DNA of 30,217 nt from a virus. The notes beneath the pieces are model-generated. The model saw nothing but the letters and a program-made list of their open reading frames with translations. It did not search any database and had not been told where the DNA came from. Made by a program: the position numbers and the translations under genes. Where the stretch lies: positions 1 to 30,217 of IMG/VR virus record IMGVR_UViG_3300010885_009766; one strand, 5' to 3'. Shown here piece after piece: positions 19,464 through 26,673 of this stretch; the stretch's first letter is position 1; the number at the start of each line of letters is the position of its first letter.

Positions 19464-19954
19464 TATTTGACCCTCGAATAAAAGATGCAATCGCACCCGT
19501 CTGGAGTGTATTTGCGGACCAATCCTTCAAATTCGAAGCCAATAGTCCGCGCCCATTTAACAGCCGAAACATTATCACAGCGCACTACTATCTGCAATCT
19601 GTGCCAAATCAGGTTGTTTTCTAAACTATTAATAGACTTTCTAGATAATTTAGTTAACTTTATGGGGTTTTTCTTGAAGGTTGGTATATCGCCCATCATC
19701 CACAACTCATGGACACCAGGCCAGATCTGCATTTCACCAAAAGAAATAACGGGCTTGCCGAGAAGAAGGATAGTTGCGGAGTGTCCATTGTCGGCATAGT
19801 GTTGCACTGTCTGGGCAAAGTTTGGTGTATGCTTGATTGTCTTTTGCTGACCAGCATCAAGATCCATCAGGTGCAGATGTCCCCAGTGAAACGGCACTGC
19901 CTTGCAATCATCTGGTAGAATTTGGTTGAGATGTTCGATAAAGTTAAAAGACAT
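19463..19954 (-). CDS. GNAT-fold, T7 gp13-like internal virion/assembly protein
   Basis: A 163-residue protein with a GNAT-like plan. A helical start leads to a strand-rich middle (S-A-T-I-L-L-L-G-K-P-V-I-S-F-G-E), then the typical acetyltransferase C-terminus: N-x-S-A-V-K-W-A-R-T-I-G-F-E-F-E-G near 128-145 and Y-T-P-D-G-C-D-C-I-F-Y-S-R at the end. T7 gp13 (138 residues) and its relatives share this fold but probably do not act as enzymes. The canonical acetyl-CoA loop (R/Q-x-x-G-x-G/A) is not evident here, so a structural or assembly role is more likely. Its start overlaps the large terminase by 11 nt. Confidence 0.7.
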   Translation of the reverse strand: MSFNFIEHLNQILPDDCKAVPFHWGHLHLMDLDAGQQKTIKHTPNFAQTVQHYADNGHSATILLLGKPVISFGEMQIWPGVHELWMMGDIPTFKKNPIKLTKLSRKSINSLENNLIWHRLQIVVRCDNVSAVKWARTIGFEFEGLVRKYTPDGCDCIFYSRVK

Positions 19955-21485
19955 TGAAATCCAACGGGGCTATAACCTGGTGTTTAGGATGATGAGCAGT
20001 ATGACCACGGGTAAGGTGGCGAAATTCCCCTCCACCAAGCATGAGATAACCGTATGCATCACCAACGTGCGAGTGCTCATTTTTATTAGGGGCGTCTCGA
20101 AAACGATCTGTGCCGCCTCCAACCCCAACGCGCTTAAAGTGATACCCGCCCCCAAGGGCTTTTCTAACCCGAACACACGCTGAGTCCACCTGTAGTCCGG
20201 GCTTGCCGTCGATCAGGCGTTGCATTGGAGCAGCACCAGCCTCGCGTCGAACCATGAAGTCGTTGCTTTGGGTGGGCTGGGCGTTGAGGCCAAGGCTTTT
20301 CAAGTGCTGGAACGCAGTCACTTCAAAGATTCCGTCTCGTGCAATACCAGCAGGATCACCCCAGATGAAGATCTGAGCCTTTGGATAGCGGCTGTTTACG
20401 TCACCGATAAGGATCTGGGCAAAGCGTTCCAAGCCCATGTCGAAAGATACGATTTCGTGCAGGATGTTCCACCTACCAGTTTGCAACCGCTGCCCAAAAA
20501 CAGCAGCAGGAGTGAGACCAAAATCAAGGCCAATATGTAGTGGTAAGTCTGGTCTATAATCAATCTTATCTTGGACCATTTGAGAGTCCAGATATTCCTG
20601 CCAAACAGCTTTTCCTTCTTGAACGTAAACAAACTGACCTCCTACATAACACCTGATCCAGTCAAGATTCTTGCCGCCAAGCTGCTGCTCATAGTACCCA
20701 TTGACTAGATTGTTGATGTTCTCGGCAACAGGATTGATCAGCCAGTGTTTGCCAGCAGCAGGAATAGCCTCTGGAGCATCGTGCATCACCTCGATCATGC
20801 CTGGTGGCTGCTTGAAGAACGTCCACTTGTATTTGCCTTGGACAGTCTCCTTCTCGCTCAGTCGATACCACCAGTGGTCTGAATCCATTGGATTAGTATC
20901 AGCCCAGATCCCACGCCAAGGAGCACCACCATTAGCTCTAGTGGGATAGCGACCAACGCGGTGAGTAAGCCCTTGGACAACAGCCAGCGGTAGTTCACGC
21001 GCTTCATTGATCCATGCTCCCGTGAGTTCCAGTGACAGCAGTTTACGCACATCTTTGGGCTGGTCGAGGGCTAGAAAGATTACTTCGCAGTCAAGACCGG
21101 GGATTCCTTCGCGTGTCGGCAACCTCAAATGATGGGTAATAGGGGGCGACCAGCGCATTGGACCCCAGATATTCTCTGGAAAGATCTCATTCCATGTCTT
21201 GATTGTCGTAGTTCTGAGTTCAGGATAGCTGTTTCGCACGATCACAAAGCGGGAATATCGCACATTGTCGATAGGGCTTGGCGGTTGTTTAATAGCTCGA
21301 AGGATTATCTCGGCGGCGCAAGCATAAGACTTACCAGAACCCACAGGGCCGAGCAGACCACGAAAGAAACTATCATCTCCGAGGAACTTCCAGACAGTGG
21401 GAGACTTGGAAAAATCGAAGTTGAGTCCATCAATGGCTGGTTCCTCAGTCGGCTTCCTCTTTGCTGACGCGCCTTTGATCTTCAT
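19944..21485 (-). CDS. terL: Terminase large subunit
   Basis: A 513-residue packaging motor. The ATPase Walker A is G-P-V-G-S-G-K-S at 46-53. A candidate Walker B/coupling segment is L-T-G-A-W-I-N-E-A-R-E-L at 154-165, and R-V-G-R-Y-P follows at 176-181. The RNase H-like nuclease part shows three spaced acidic sites: D321 in G-L-D-F-G, D377 in W-G-D-P-A-G and D476 in H-V-G-D-A-Y-G-Y. Both halves thus look intact. It overlaps the small terminase as ATGA. Confidence 0.95.
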   Translation of the reverse strand: MKIKGASAKRKPTEEPAIDGLNFDFSKSPTVWKFLGDDSFFRGLLGPVGSGKSYACAAEIILRAIKQPPSPIDNVRYSRFVIVRNSYPELRTTTIKTWNEIFPENIWGPMRWSPPITHHLRLPTREGIPGLDCEVIFLALDQPKDVRKLLSLELTGAWINEARELPLAVVQGLTHRVGRYPTRANGGAPWRGIWADTNPMDSDHWWYRLSEKETVQGKYKWTFFKQPPGMIEVMHDAPEAIPAAGKHWLINPVAENINNLVNGYYEQQLGGKNLDWIRCYVGGQFVYVQEGKAVWQEYLDSQMVQDKIDYRPDLPLHIGLDFGLTPAAVFGQRLQTGRWNILHEIVSFDMGLERFAQILIGDVNSRYPKAQIFIWGDPAGIARDGIFEVTAFQHLKSLGLNAQPTQSNDFMVRREAGAAPMQRLIDGKPGLQVDSACVRVRKALGGGYHFKRVGVGGGTDRFRDAPNKNEHSHVGDAYGYLMLGGGEFRHLTRGHTAHHPKHQVIAPLDFNVF

Positions 21486-21955
21486 GCCACCTCCTCTTTT
21501 TGCTTTTGATTATCTTCAGCCGAAAGATCGAGGATTGGAGTGCCAATGCCTCCAACGACCTCTTCTTCATCGTCCTCTTCGATAACTTCTTTGACTTCAT
21601 AACTCGTCACCGCTGGGCCATGCAGATTAATACCAATGATAGACGGCCTATTCTCATCCTGCACTACCTCCATCAAGCCATAGTGCTTGGCAAGAGTATT
21701 CAAAGCCCTCATCTTGTCGTGCATCTCTATCTCGATCTGATTACCATGCATCGTCGGCGTAACCTTCACCTTCTTGATAGCAGCCTTAACATGGCTAGCA
21801 AGATCCTCAGAAGGCCGTACAGACACATTGCCAGCATTATCCCACCAAAGTACGTCCGTAATAGAAGAAGCCGCTACAGCCTCTAATTCTTGCAGCACAG
21901 CATCACGCTTTGGAGTAGCAATATCCCTACGGATAGAACGCATTGATCTACGCAT
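21482..21955 (-). CDS. terS: Terminase small subunit, lacking the usual N-terminal HTH
   Basis: A 157-residue protein directly before and overlapping terL. It matches the C-terminal half of Terminase_2-type small subunits: L-Q-E-L-E-A-V-A-A-S-S-I-T-D-V near 21-35, A-I-K-K-V-K-V-T-x-x-x-x-G-N-Q-I-E-I-E near 58-77, and D-K-M-R-A-L-N-T-L-A-K-H-Y-G-L at 80-94, then a very acidic tail (EEDDEEE). The N-terminal helix-turn-helix that normally recognises the packaging site is missing. An in-frame TAA lies two codons upstream of the ATG, and no other open frame with an HTH is seen there. Role: start of packaging with TerL; how it recognises DNA is unclear. Confidence 0.75.
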   Translation of the reverse strand: MRRSMRSIRRDIATPKRDAVLQELEAVAASSITDVLWWDNAGNVSVRPSEDLASHVKAAIKKVKVTPTMHGNQIEIEMHDKMRALNTLAKHYGLMEVVQDENRPSIIGINLHGPAVTSYEVKEVIEEDDEEEVVGGIGTPILDLSAEDNQKQKEEVA

Positions 21956-21986: not shown

Positions 21987-22015
21987 TAGATAAGCCTTCT
22001 ACAGAAACTTGTCAA
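21987..22015 (-). promoter_or_regulatory. Late promoter upstream of the terminase genes
   Basis: Minus strand: perfect TTGACA (22010-22015), 17 nt, TATCTA (21987-21992, a weak -10). It lies 31 nt before the small-terminase ATG, in AT-rich sequence, and is the only promoter-like site upstream of the packaging and virion operon. Confidence 0.5.
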
Positions 22016-22184
22016 AAAATATACTGAGTTAACTAAATGTTGATGCAGATCTCAAATTTCCCCTGCACAAGCACTGTGGATTGAATTTATGAAAATGGAA
22101 AAAATATTGAGGGGGAGACCCCGAGAGGAACGGGCAGGGGTGGGGGGCGGGTGTCCCCTCTCTGTGTGACGCGTCCTGTGTAAT
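22016..22184. other. Gene-free segment with a G-rich, structure-forming tract
   Basis: Part of the only gene-free stretch above 300 bp (21956-22323). An AT-rich part (22016-22110) is followed by GGGG-GAGA-CCCC (22111-22122), a perfect 4-bp hairpin with a GNRA-type loop. Then comes a strong G-quadruplex motif on the plus strand, G3-CA-G4-T-G6-C-G3 (22132-22151). GAGAGG (22123-22128) and CCTCTC (22157-22162) could close a larger stem around it. Read on the minus strand, the GGGGTCTCCCC hairpin is followed by CTCAATATTTTTT, so it may also end the rep-like transcript. Packaging-site, origin and terminator roles all remain possible. Confidence 0.6.
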
Positions 22185-22332
22185 GGGATGGATGCATTAT
22201 ATATGGTGCACATTGCATTTTATATTGTGCATTTGTTTCAGATTGTTGGACCCATTTGGTGGGATGAATGCATTATATATTGGGCATTTTATTTAATGCA
22301 TTGGGCATTTTATATTGTGCATTTTATATTGG
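22185..22332. repeat. Iteron-like AT-rich direct repeats (candidate origin)
   Basis: Seen directly: (a) a 20-bp exact repeat, GCATTTTATATTGTGCATTT, at 22215-22234 and 22305-22324, 90 bp apart. (b) Two tandem 21-bp units, 22280-22300 and 22301-22321, 18 of 21 identical, beginning TTGGGCATTTTAT. (c) Two tandem 14-bp units, 22305-22318 and 22319-22332, 13 of 14 identical. (d) GGGATG-R-ATGCATTATATAT at 22185 and 22261. (e) Three ATGCAT palindromes (22192, 22268, 22296). Iterons of about 21 bp beside a Rep-like gene are the plasmid-type origin arrangement. The rep-like stop codon (22324-22326) lies inside the array. Confidence 0.7.
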
Positions 22333-23004
22333 GAACACGACCGACATCGACGTTGGAACCGTGCCAGTGCGTGCCAGATTAGCCCGGATAAATGCCAGCG
22401 TATCGATCGACACTTGTTCCGGCGTTAGACCATTATCAGCTAATCGATTGGCTGTGGTTTGATTGTTTGAATAAATCGCATTAGAACCGAATTGATTGAT
22501 TGCTCTATTAAATGAATTGAACAATTGCCTACCCTTTAAATCCCTATCTTTATGAGTCGGATTGCCCTTGTTTTCCCCTATCTTGATTGCCTCTTTCTCT
22601 TTTGGTTCTTGTGACCAATTGAACGGTTCGGCTTCTCTGATTTGTTCTCCGGTCGCTAATGGTGTTTGTTTGCCTTCATAGAGTATCTGGTATCGATTGG
22701 TTAACCACTTACTCACTTGTCCATCATACCATCCCGGCTTTAAGAGTCGCACCAATCCGAAGCTTTCCAGTCTTTTAATACTGGCCATGATTCCGTTGCG
22801 CCCAATCCCGGCGCATCTTTCGATTGTTTCATGCGTTGGCCAGCAGACCCCGGAATAATTGGTATAAAAGCACAAAGTGGTTAGGACGCGCCAATCAACC
22901 AAGCTTAAATCGCATTCAAGCGCATGCTTAGGAATAACCGAATATCGGCGCAAATCATCCGGAAGCACAATCTTTTTTGCATTTTTTTTGTCTAATGTTT
23001 TCAT
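22324..23004 (-). CDS. Winged-helix Rep-like / regulator protein
   Basis: A 226-residue protein. Residues of about 33-110 form a winged helix: W-R-V-L-T-T-L-C-F-Y, then C-W-P-T-H-E-T-I-E-R-C-A-G-I-G-R-N-G-I-M-A-S recognition helix, then K-R-L-E-S-F-G-L-V-R-L and a wing ending N-R-Y-Q-I-L-Y. This resembles the HTH_36 type found in plasmid and phage replication initiators and some regulators. The C-terminal half is polar, with N-Q and K-E rich stretches and a final helix. It has its own promoter with a palindrome and ends inside an iteron-like array, which favours an initiator or autoregulator. No strong Shine-Dalgarno site precedes the ATG. A pure transcription regulator is the alternative. 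Confidence 0.65.
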   Translation of the reverse strand: MKTLDKKNAKKIVLPDDLRRYSVIPKHALECDLSLVDWRVLTTLCFYTNYSGVCWPTHETIERCAGIGRNGIMASIKRLESFGLVRLLKPGWYDGQVSKWLTNRYQILYEGKQTPLATGEQIREAEPFNWSQEPKEKEAIKIGENKGNPTHKDRDLKGRQLFNSFNRAINQFGSNAIYSNNQTTANRLADNGLTPEQVSIDTLAFIRANLARTGTVPTSMSVVFPI

Positions 23005-23131: not shown

Positions 23132-23923
23132 ATGTCCATCATTTACGATTTATCCAAAGTAAATCCTGCCCTTGTTGCTCAAATTCATGCATCGCCTAAA
23201 TATACAAAATGGTTTTCCGAAAAACCTGATCAGATGCTTCGCTTGGACGGTTCAACCAAGGTGATAAAGGGCAACAAGCTTGGATATCGTACCGCCATTT
23301 TGTATCTGTCACCTAGCAATATATCGGGACAACAATTATGCCCTAATGCCAAGCTTGCAGGATGCGAAGAGGCATGTCTTAACACTAGTGGTCGTGGTGC
23401 TATGAATGGCGTGCAAATGTCGCGATTGCGTAAAGCTTTATTCTGGCAACAGTATCGTGATGAAGCTATTGCTTTGATCATGCATGAAATAAAACTAGCA
23501 GAAGCACAAGCGGCGCGTGAAGGTTGGATATTGCTTGTTCGGTTGAACGGGACAAGTGACATCCGGTGGGAAAATTATGGCATTATCCAAGCTTTTCCGA
23601 ATGTGCAATTCTACGACTACACCAAGCTTGCTAATCGCAAAAACATTCCAGCCAATTATGATTTGACGTTTAGCTATTCTGGAATTGCATCGTTTCAATC
23701 AACCGTTCTAAAAGCATTGGCCACTAATCAGCGCATGGCGGTAGTGTTTCGCCACCGTTCCAATGTGCAAAGCATGCTTTCCAATGGCGATGCATTCCTA
23801 GGCCTAACCGTAGTGGACGGCGACGATACAGATATTAGACACTTGGACCCGCAAGCTAGTGTCGTTGCGCTCTATGCTAAAGGCAAGGCAAAGACTGACC
23901 AATCTGGATTTGTTGTAAACTAA
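23132..23923 (+). CDS. Gp88/DUF7227-like protein with conserved Cys motif
   Basis: A 263-residue protein with several blocks I recognise from the Gp88/DUF7227-type phage proteins of unknown function: L-S-P-S-N-I-S-G (59-66), C70-P-N-A-K-L-A-G-C78-E-E-A-C82-L-N-T-S-G-R-G, R-L-N-G-T-S-D-I-R-W-E (137-147), F-Y-D-Y-T-K (160-165), L-T-F-S-Y-S (178-183) and V-V-D-G-D-D-T-D-I-R-H-L-D-P (227-240). The C-x7-C-x3-C spacing could hold a metal or iron-sulfur cluster but is not the standard radical-SAM motif. Conserved polar blocks at strand ends hint at an alpha/beta barrel enzyme. It is first in a three-gene plus-strand cassette with its own promoter and terminator. The reaction, if any, is unknown. Confidence 0.75.
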   Translation: MSIIYDLSKVNPALVAQIHASPKYTKWFSEKPDQMLRLDGSTKVIKGNKLGYRTAILYLSPSNISGQQLCPNAKLAGCEEACLNTSGRGAMNGVQMSRLRKALFWQQYRDEAIALIMHEIKLAEAQAAREGWILLVRLNGTSDIRWENYGIIQAFPNVQFYDYTKLANRKNIPANYDLTFSYSGIASFQSTVLKALATNQRMAVVFRHRSNVQSMLSNGDAFLGLTVVDGDDTDIRHLDPQASVVALYAKGKAKTDQSGFVVN

Positions 23924-24711: not shown

Positions 24712-24954
24712 TCAAAAAGGGATGTCGTCCCCATCGAGTGCGTCCTTAGCAGAAACAAGGGGCTTGGCAGGGGATCGTGCCGCGTCCTTTAGGTTAACGA
24801 ACCCGCCAAAGTATTTAGAGCCGTCCTCATTCTCGTTAATGAATCCGCTCAACCAATACTCTACCCCATTGACGTTAACAGAACCAAGATAGGGCGGCGA
24901 CTTTTCAGTCTTTGGCTTGGTGTTTTTCCGCAATGCGAATGTATTCTCTTTCAT
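24712..24954 (-). CDS. Small protein with SSB-type C-terminal tip
   Basis: An 80-residue protein. The body has alternating strand-like segments (Y-L-G-S-V-N-V-N-G-V-E-Y-W-L-S-G-F-I, then K-Y-F-G-G-F-V-N-L) consistent with a small beta barrel. The last residues are A-L-D-G-D-D-I-P-F, nearly identical to the acidic D-D-D-I-P-F tip with which bacterial SSB recruits partner proteins. It closes the replication operon, which supports a single-strand-binding or SSB-mimic role. It is less than half the length of typical SSB (about 170), so a full OB fold would be minimal. A GGGTAACT leader precedes the ATG. Confidence 0.6.
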   Translation of the reverse strand: MKENTFALRKNTKPKTEKSPPYLGSVNVNGVEYWLSGFINENEDGSKYFGGFVNLKDAARSPAKPLVSAKDALDGDDIPF

Positions 24955-24955
24955 G

Positions 24956-25327
24956 TTAGTTACCCTTTGCTATTGTTGCTAGTCGATTAAAACGCTCGAC
25001 TACCCGCGCTCGTTCTTCTGCCGTCAGGACTGGCATGGTTTTAAACCTATCCTTAGACGGCTTGAATTGATCATCGTATTGTTCGGGCCATTCGGTCGGG
25101 ACCATGTAAGCCCGGTCCTGGCGCATACAACTAGCTAGGAACGCGGCCCTTTTCATCAACCCAACCTGTTTAAAATACCGATACCATTCTCTACCCTGCG
25201 GCCCATTGGTAATCACGTGGCCTAATGATCCGTCTGGATTTTTTGTGGCATACATGTGGTTGAGAGCAGCCAAAGCCCAAGGGTCTAGTTGTTCGTGGAC
25301 TGGTTTTTCTTGAACTCGGAAAGCCAT
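24956..25327 (-). CDS. Unknown protein of the replication operon (123 aa)
   Basis: A 123-residue protein with no family I recognise. Visible are a D-P-W-A-L-A-A-L-N-H helix near 15-24, an R-E-W-Y-R-Y-F-K-Q-V-G-L segment at about 46-57, a Trp-Pro-Glu-Gln stretch and an Arg/Glu-rich C-terminal helix (TAEERARVVERFNRLA). Its start overlaps the O-like gene by 43 nt and has a GGAGG site about 10 nt upstream. Placed between the O-like and SSB-tail genes, it probably helps replication, perhaps as a loader accessory, but this is from position only. Confidence 0.65.
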   Translation of the reverse strand: MAFRVQEKPVHEQLDPWALAALNHMYATKNPDGSLGHVITNGPQGREWYRYFKQVGLMKRAAFLASCMRQDRAYMVPTEWPEQYDDQFKPSKDRFKTMPVLTAEERARVVERFNRLATIAKGN

Positions 25328-26043
25328 TTTTTCGATTCCTCCATGTAGTGATTACGTTCATCGTCTGTAGTTACCCGTTGGCGATTTGAATTGTCCACCG
25401 GGATTTGATCTAACCACCGTTCAGCATTGAGCCAAGTGGTGGCATGCGGAATATATTTTTCCTCAGAAGGGAAGTCCTTGCTGCGCTTCCACTGGCTTAG
25501 TCCATCCATGATGGTAGAGGGTAGGGTCTTGGCGATAGCTTTACTCCATGCCTTCACTGCCAAGCCTCTTCCTACTCTCCTTGGGTATTCATTCCAAAAC
25601 AAATCAAAACCATCGACAGATGGTGACCTCTTTTTAGTATGTTTTTTTATCTGTTCTGTATCTGTATCTGTATCTGTATCTGGTCGTGTTTCAATCACCG
25701 TTTCACTAACGTTACTGGAACGTTCCCTGAAACGTTTCACTCTGTCAGTAGAACTATCTGATTTGTATTGTCTTTTTTCCCATGAGTGTATGGCGTAGTG
25801 CATCCCGTCAACACCACCGCTCACCTTGTCGAGCAACCCTGCGCTAGACAACCGCTGAAGCACCGTCTGGCAACCGTCTGGTGTCATGCGTAAAGCGAAA
25901 GCGATGTCACTGATTGACCTCGGCAGACCGTCTTGCTTGGCGCAAAGGCAGAGTAGATTGACCCATGATTTGAACATGTCACCGTCAAGCATCTGGACCT
26001 TTGGGTCATCCAGTGCCTCATGATAGAACCTGAACCATTGCAT
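25285..26043 (-). CDS. Phage replication protein, O-like
   Basis: A 252-residue protein. The N-terminal 85 residues form a winged helix (MQWFRFYHEALDDPKVQMLD, then I-S-D-I-A-F-A-L-R-M-T-P-D-G and L-Q-R-L-S-S-A-G-L-L). A Thr-Asp linker (residues of about 121-129, encoded by a hexanucleotide repeat) precedes a C-terminal module with F-D-L-F-W-N-E-Y-P-R-R-V-G-R-G-x-A, then Y-I-P-H-A-T-T-W-L-N-A-E-R-W-L-D. This is the common end of phage O-like initiators and helicase-loader proteins. It would bind the origin and bring in the host replicative helicase. Its Shine-Dalgarno site sits in a hairpin, suggesting translational control. Confidence 0.78.
   Translation of the reverse strand: MQWFRFYHEALDDPKVQMLDGDMFKSWVNLLCLCAKQDGLPRSISDIAFALRMTPDGCQTVLQRLSSAGLLDKVSGGVDGMHYAIHSWEKRQYKSDSSTDRVKRFRERSSNVSETVIETRPDTDTDTDTEQIKKHTKKRSPSVDGFDLFWNEYPRRVGRGLAVKAWSKAIAKTLPSTIMDGLSQWKRSKDFPSEEKYIPHATTWLNAERWLDQIPVDNSNRQRVTTDDERNHYMEESKKWLSEFKKNQSTNN
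25655..25682. repeat. (TCTGTA)n hexanucleotide microsatellite in the O-like gene
   Basis: Four full and one partial TCTGTA units in a row on the plus strand, encoding the Thr-Asp repeat of the O-like linker on the minus strand. Gain or loss of a unit keeps the frame and changes the linker by two residues. Confidence 0.9.
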
Positions 26044-26166: not shown

Positions 26167-26673
26167 TTATGCATACCTCTTTTCTACGCCTCGATCAAGT
26201 TTATCTTGATACCTCCTGCACCCGTGGAGGATGGTGGTATGGTCTTTGTTGCCCATGTAGCCAGCTATCCGAGGGTAGGACCAGCCAAGATCATGGCGCA
26301 GATGCCAGTAGATTTCATGGCGGCAGTCAGGCAGATTCCCATACCGAAACTCAGCCCTAACATCCTTTGGTGAGTATCCCCACTTCTCGCAACCGCGCAG
26401 CACAATCGACCGCGCCTGTTCCATGACGTTTACAGGAGGTGCGTCACTGGTCAGATACCAGATGTCTCGGTCGTATGTCCGCAGTGGTGGATTAGTGGCT
26501 AGCATACGGCGCAACCGTTCACGCCTATCGCCATGCTTTGTGATCTCGATTGGTTTCTTGCTGATCGAATCAACGACCTCGATCCCCGCTTTGGTCTTGT
26601 GCATAACCTGTGGACAGGGACGAAATTTATTTCGTATGTCTTTGTATCTGTTGATAAAATCTAGGTCATTCAT
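26167..26673 (-). CDS. DnaA domain IV-like DNA-binding protein
   Basis: A 168-residue protein. Its C-terminal part (about 117-156) matches the DNA-binding domain IV of DnaA: C-R-H-E-I-Y-W-H-L-R-H-D-L-G, then S-Y-P-R-I-A-G-Y-M-G-N-K-D-H-T-T-I-L-H-G-C-R. The D-H-T-T at 144-147 is the DnaA-box signature. There is no ATPase domain, so it cannot act as DnaA by itself. It may bind an origin, compete with host DnaA at its boxes or regulate the operon. The N-terminal 100 residues are unlike anything I recognise. It overlaps the rusA-like gene by 8 nt, so the two are coupled. Confidence 0.75.
   Translation of the reverse strand: MNDLDFINRYKDIRNKFRPCPQVMHKTKAGIEVVDSISKKPIEITKHGDRRERLRRMLATNPPLRTYDRDIWYLTSDAPPVNVMEQARSIVLRGCEKWGYSPKDVRAEFRYGNLPDCRHEIYWHLRHDLGWSYPRIAGYMGNKDHTTILHGCRRYQDKLDRGVEKRYA

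Follow-up and report, generated by a model that had tools for sequence, protein, structure and literature searches.

A repeat array and a C/G-rich box behind a lambda-O-like initiator gene as the probable replication origin of a podophage

Why does a phage genome carry a dense bank of nested direct repeats at the very end of a gene for a putative replication initiator? The locus lies in a 30,217-bp IMG/VR record, here called the window, and its features are collected in Table 1. A preliminary description took the repeats for a plasmid-like iteron origin, which next to a T7-type virion module would have been unusual. As judged by sequence, the window phage is a podovirus and a relative of Methylophilales phage MEP301 (MW452941), to whose TerL its own is 65% identical. 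The interpretation that we favor is that the array, together with a conserved box that follows it, probably serves this podophage as its replication origin, at the 3' end of a lambda-O-like initiator gene and just beyond it. What we infer is the function as an origin, the identity of the binding protein and the part played by the box, whereas the region itself is real, conserved, functional-looking and non-coding, and its layout is a variation on a known theme.

Table 1. Features of the window around the repeat array (strand "." means that no strand is assigned).
Feature	Positions	Strand	Remarks
Terminase large subunit gene (terL)	19944..21485	-	used for collecting relatives
Terminase small subunit gene (terS)	21482..21955	-	
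Sigma-70-like promoter before terS	21987..22015	-	TTGACA-17-TATCTA, read from sequence
C-run/G-run/A-T-run box, ~50 bp	22097..22147	-	minus strand CCCCCCACCCC...CTCTCGGGGTCTCCCCCTCAATATTTTTTCC; linked to rep family-wide
Spacer, array core to C/G box	22148..22188	.	
Whole repeat array	22184..22333	.	150 bp
GGGATG-R-ATGCATTATATAT pair	22185-22204 and 22261-22280		
Constant array core	22189..22253	.	last TGCM spacings 14-7-14 and GGGTCCAACAATCT spacer
20-bp exact repeat GCATTTTATATTGTGCATTT	22215-22234 and 22305-22324		
Variable array part	22254..22333	.	14-bp units and 7-bp half units; overlaps rep 3' end
21-bp tandem	22279-22323		TRF score 69
14-bp tandem	22300-22333		TRF score 61
rep-like gene	22324..23004	-	226 aa; winged-helix (HTH_36), lambda-O/replication-initiation-like; stop codon in array
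GP88-family protein (PF17338)	23132-23923	+	neighbor of rep in opposite orientation; conserved in L002 and L003
SSB	24712-24954		phage-encoded
Second O-like/primosomal replication initiation protein	25285-26043	-	phrog_270, E 1.6e-27; repeated DTDTDTDTE stretch
Bacterial DnaA domain IV protein	26167-26673	-	168 residues; DnaA-box-binding HTH, DHTT motif kept, no AAA+ part

The repeats are real. All of the nested direct repeats named in the preliminary description (the 20-bp exact repeat, the 21-bp and 14-bp tandems and the GGGATG-R pair) were found again, and the 150-bp array contains 30 repeated 9-mers; 2,000 dinucleotide shuffles gave 1.8 on average and never more than 16. Among 3,007 sampled 150-bp windows this number was matched by a single one, itself located inside the array. 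The basic unit is 14 bp long (minus strand, AATGCAnnATATAA) and is interrupted by 7-bp half units. The 21-bp period that was thought to place the repeats on the same face of the helix does exist, but it consists of 14+7 bp, and the helical phase holds for part of the array only. The TAA stop codon of rep (22324-22326, minus strand) lies inside the array, as claimed, where it is part of a repeat unit, and the final bases of the gene are themselves repeat units.

Three further contigs (L002, L003 and L004) carry rep, the array and terS, and a DNA scan for the array core identified no members beyond these three phages and the window. Common to all four is a 3' core with TGCM spacings of 14-41-14-7-14; the units on the rep side vary by phage, with none in L004 and seven more spacings in L002 and L003, in both of which the rep reading frame extends further into the array. 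The 65-bp core block is 95-100% identical and the C/G box 94-100% identical in these phages, while the intervening 41 bp come in two types with only 52% identity between them. Since the core and the box are conserved around this divergent stretch, they appear to be two non-coding islands kept under selection. Both terS and the array core are highly conserved in the window clade, and rep is not, its winged-helix half having a DNA identity of 65% between phages with the same array core. The core is thus kept while this half of Rep changes, and the absence of visible co-variation between array and Rep may be taken as weak evidence against a tight pairing of the two.

The protein encoded by rep is a member of a phage-wide family of winged-helix, lambda-O-like initiators, in agreement with its first description as a winged-helix Rep-like protein. 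The window Rep matches phrog_391 ("replication initiation O-like," E 4.5e-8), and across the family HTH_36 and phrog_270 ("replication initiation protein") were each recovered in 42 of 42 aligned members and the O-like phrog_391 in 41. AlphaFold2 predicts a winged helix with confidence (mean pLDDT 83). A fold search of the PDB with this model retrieved generic winged helices, initiator domains among them (4pt7/4pql, Z 6.6-6.7), and was set aside as an identification of Rep because such matches are not diagnostic; among the phage HTH proteins retrieved from BFVD was the Min27 O protein. Pfam scans gave no RepA_N hit for Rep, and its resemblance to RepA_N initiators is one of winged-helix fold only. 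The assignment of an initiator function rests on the replication-initiation profiles and on the genome context. The rep gene has terS on one side and the gene for the GP88-family protein on the other, no P- or DnaC-type helicase-loader gene lies directly downstream, and an O-like/primosomal protein is encoded 2.3 kb away.

Behind the rep stop codon lies a second element, absent from the preliminary description, in the form of a C-run, a G-run and AAAATTTT. Its consensus is GGCACCCCTTGCCCCCC-N-CCCC ... GGGGGTGTCACACAAAATTTT, found shortly after the rep stop. TerL-based searches yielded 80 viral and 28 bacterial-genome loci, in many of which the order rep, gap, terS, terL is kept. The box is present in 48 of the 51 TerL-selected loci with rep, in 40 by a strict pattern and in eight by inspection (L021, L026, L088, L069, L068, L081, L090 and L095), and was not found in the other three (L062, L079 and L096). 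A search of 2.9 million viral contigs with the DNA pattern of the box alone matched at least 120 stretches. Among the matches listed and the earlier loci, 107 of the 108 distinct boxes with an upstream ORF had a Rep-family gene at most 400 nt upstream, and the genes downstream of the box belonged to 26 unlinked groups. The box still stands behind rep where terS is 1.8-3.4 kb distant (L051, L060, L077 and L089). In MEP301, gp55 (annotated as hypothetical; 34057-34662 of L011, minus strand) is a member of this Rep family and is likewise followed by the C/G box, but unlike in the window the slot has no 14-bp array, and the box lies about 2 kb from terS. A hairpin formed by the C-run and the G-run was rejected, as it had no covariation support. 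On the plus strand of the box region (22097-22165), four G runs lie close together (GGGCAGGGGTGGGGGGCGGG) and may form a G-quadruplex.

What fills the slot between rep and the box differs across the family. Most members have a short spacer there, and direct-repeat arrays were seen in the window clade and in L090 only, so that the array is dispensable for the function of the family. Exact TTATCCACA DnaA boxes were found seven times in the slots, at 71 times their density elsewhere in the loci, and 18 DnaA boxes were counted when one mismatch was allowed, compared with at most seven in shuffles. The sister clade with the exact DnaA box consists of L018, L020, L129, L164, L174, L178 and L230, together with L021, and several members of this clade have a second DnaA box, which is inverted and imperfect. 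The word CGTTTGC is also overrepresented, occurring in 13 of 80 slots as against no more than 7 in shuffles, and some members have a GCAAAC-N4-GTTTGC palindrome behind the rep stop; a general palindrome at this place was rejected, the inverted repeats over 78 slots being no stronger than in shuffles (p 0.55). In L090, seven 11-bp DnaA-box-like units of the CTGTTGATAAG type start with the rep stop and end short of the box, with the same layout as the window array and a different sequence. The window slot itself contains no DnaA box within two mismatches, and a reading of its array as DnaA boxes was therefore rejected. CTGTGGATAAG arrays also occur in other contigs (L263-L271), but these are from unrelated phages that have neither this Rep nor this TerL, which leaves L090 as a single case within the family. 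Four of these unrelated phages (L263, L268, L270 and L271) have long tandem arrays of TGTGGATAA DnaA boxes, which are likely to be the origins of another phage group, and three of the four also encode a GP88 relative.

DnaA boxes and iteron-like arrays beside an initiator gene mark replication origins, as in lambda (PMC7466680) and in the RepA_N replicons (PMC7145576). An array slot that holds DnaA boxes or a DnaA-box-like array in relatives, next to a box that is linked to rep, fits an origin, and to this extent the idea of an iteron origin beside the rep-like gene is upheld; the epithet "plasmid-like" is not. The lambdoid origin, which has four iterons in lambda and six in Stx phages (PMC7466680), is similar in that an O-like winged-helix initiator (here by profile) goes together with AT-rich direct repeats that are tied to the initiator gene and vary in copy number between relatives. 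It differs in that the iterons of lambda occupy the middle of O, whereas the window array overlaps only the last codons of rep and otherwise lies downstream of its 3' end. Further differences are the 14-bp unit of the window array with its half steps, the C/G box behind the array, the lack of an adjoining P-type gene and the putative nature of binding by Rep. The RepA_N replicons (pSK41, pTZ2162 and the PLE satellite RepA; PMC7145576) share with the window a winged-helix initiator domain and semi-palindromic direct repeats that converge on an A/T tract, the window repeat being TGCA-AT-TGCA. The similarity in fold to the 4pt7/4pql domains is however weak and common to many winged helices, and the family member L199 has no match among 72,556 plasmid records.

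If the array and the box are indeed an origin, the initiator, either Rep or a DnaA-type protein, would bind to the repeats, and melting would follow, either in the AT-rich tract of repeats or in the A/T runs at the flanks. Host helicase and polymerase would then be loaded, perhaps with the aid of the phage-made second O-like protein and the SSB. The array would serve as the window clade's own protein-binding part, and the C/G box as the part that almost the entire family has in common. A polymerase gene is missing from MEP301, which is supposed to use the polymerase of its host (PMC8024684). The DnaA-domain-IV protein, which is 95% identical in L012, is possibly a DnaA-like factor of the phage or a decoy. 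This protein and the second O-like protein could also be the real initiators, which counts against our reading. The GC skew proved uninformative: its cumulative curve rises almost all round the genome with no switch at the array, and the near-monotone rise makes a minimum at the box trivial. The suggestion that the array might be a second origin found no support, as the window showed neither a further array of this kind nor a further C/G box.

We also considered the possibility that the region is a packaging site, with the repeats as binding sites for the small terminase and the box as a pac or cos cleavage site near terS. It is true that cos and pac regions resemble C/G-rich boxes with repeats upstream of terS, that the gene following in the window clade is terS, highly conserved along with the array core, and that two of the TerL-selected contigs (L016 and L028) start inside the box at different points. 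Such starts may reflect either a preferred end or breakage of the assembly at homopolymer runs. However, the box tracks rep rather than terS, from which it lies 73-3,389 bp away, and it was internal and at scattered positions in 16 records of 27.5-36.1 kb, the near-complete ones fetched having no end repeats. The box thus seems unlike a fixed genome end, which speaks against a fixed cos end in spite of L016 and L028. The MEP301 assembly is a circle, which its authors interpreted as a sign of permutation or of terminal repeats (PMC8024684), and the DnaA boxes in the slots would be left unexplained, so that we regard a packaging site as unlikely.

Nor do we think it at all likely that the region is regulatory, the array being a bank of operators and the box a signal for termination or pausing that separates the rep transcript from the late operon. 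Repeat banks are typical of phage repressors, and a promoter between the box and terS is conserved in the window, L003 and L004, although a promoter scan that required a final T in the -10 element did not list it. On the other hand, no T-run directly follows a hairpin, there was no minus-strand terminator call at the box, the box has no covariation, the genes behind it are unrelated, and DnaA boxes are unexpected as operators of a late promoter. Rfam and tRNA scans gave no matches. A functionless minisatellite grown by slippage from a short repeat would account for the differing copy number on the rep side in four near relatives and for the intrusion of units into rep, but is very unlikely given the fixed spacing of the core, its high identity beside a divergent stretch, and the presence of a different array in the same slot of L090.

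A broader reading of the probable origin, which we put forward with considerable doubt, is that a whole group of podoviruses shares one origin type, composed of an O-like initiator gene, an exchangeable binding module and the invariant box as the true start site. The module would be the 14-bp TGCA array, DnaA boxes or a CGTTTGC-type motif, and the box would possibly be structured (G-quadruplex-prone) or nicked, rather than a place of simple melting. We can only tentatively suggest that such an origin type in this large and almost uncultured group is undescribed. If true, it would provide a sequence signature of replication origins for a widespread, nearly uncultured phage group, assign a function to proteins annotated as hypothetical, such as MEP301 gp55, and imply that the binding module is swapped between clades while the initiator gene and the core box are retained.

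A plasmid-like lifestyle, by contrast, is not supported. A search of 72,556 plasmid records at E 1e-3 with the Rep family member L199 as the query gave no match, and no partition protein or integrase was found among the approximately 30 window proteins scanned, in a record that may lack a few kb. We have therefore abandoned the plasmid-prophage reading. Nor is a T7-like virion module combined with host-dependent replication genes peculiar to the window, as MEP301 has this layout too (PMC8024684).
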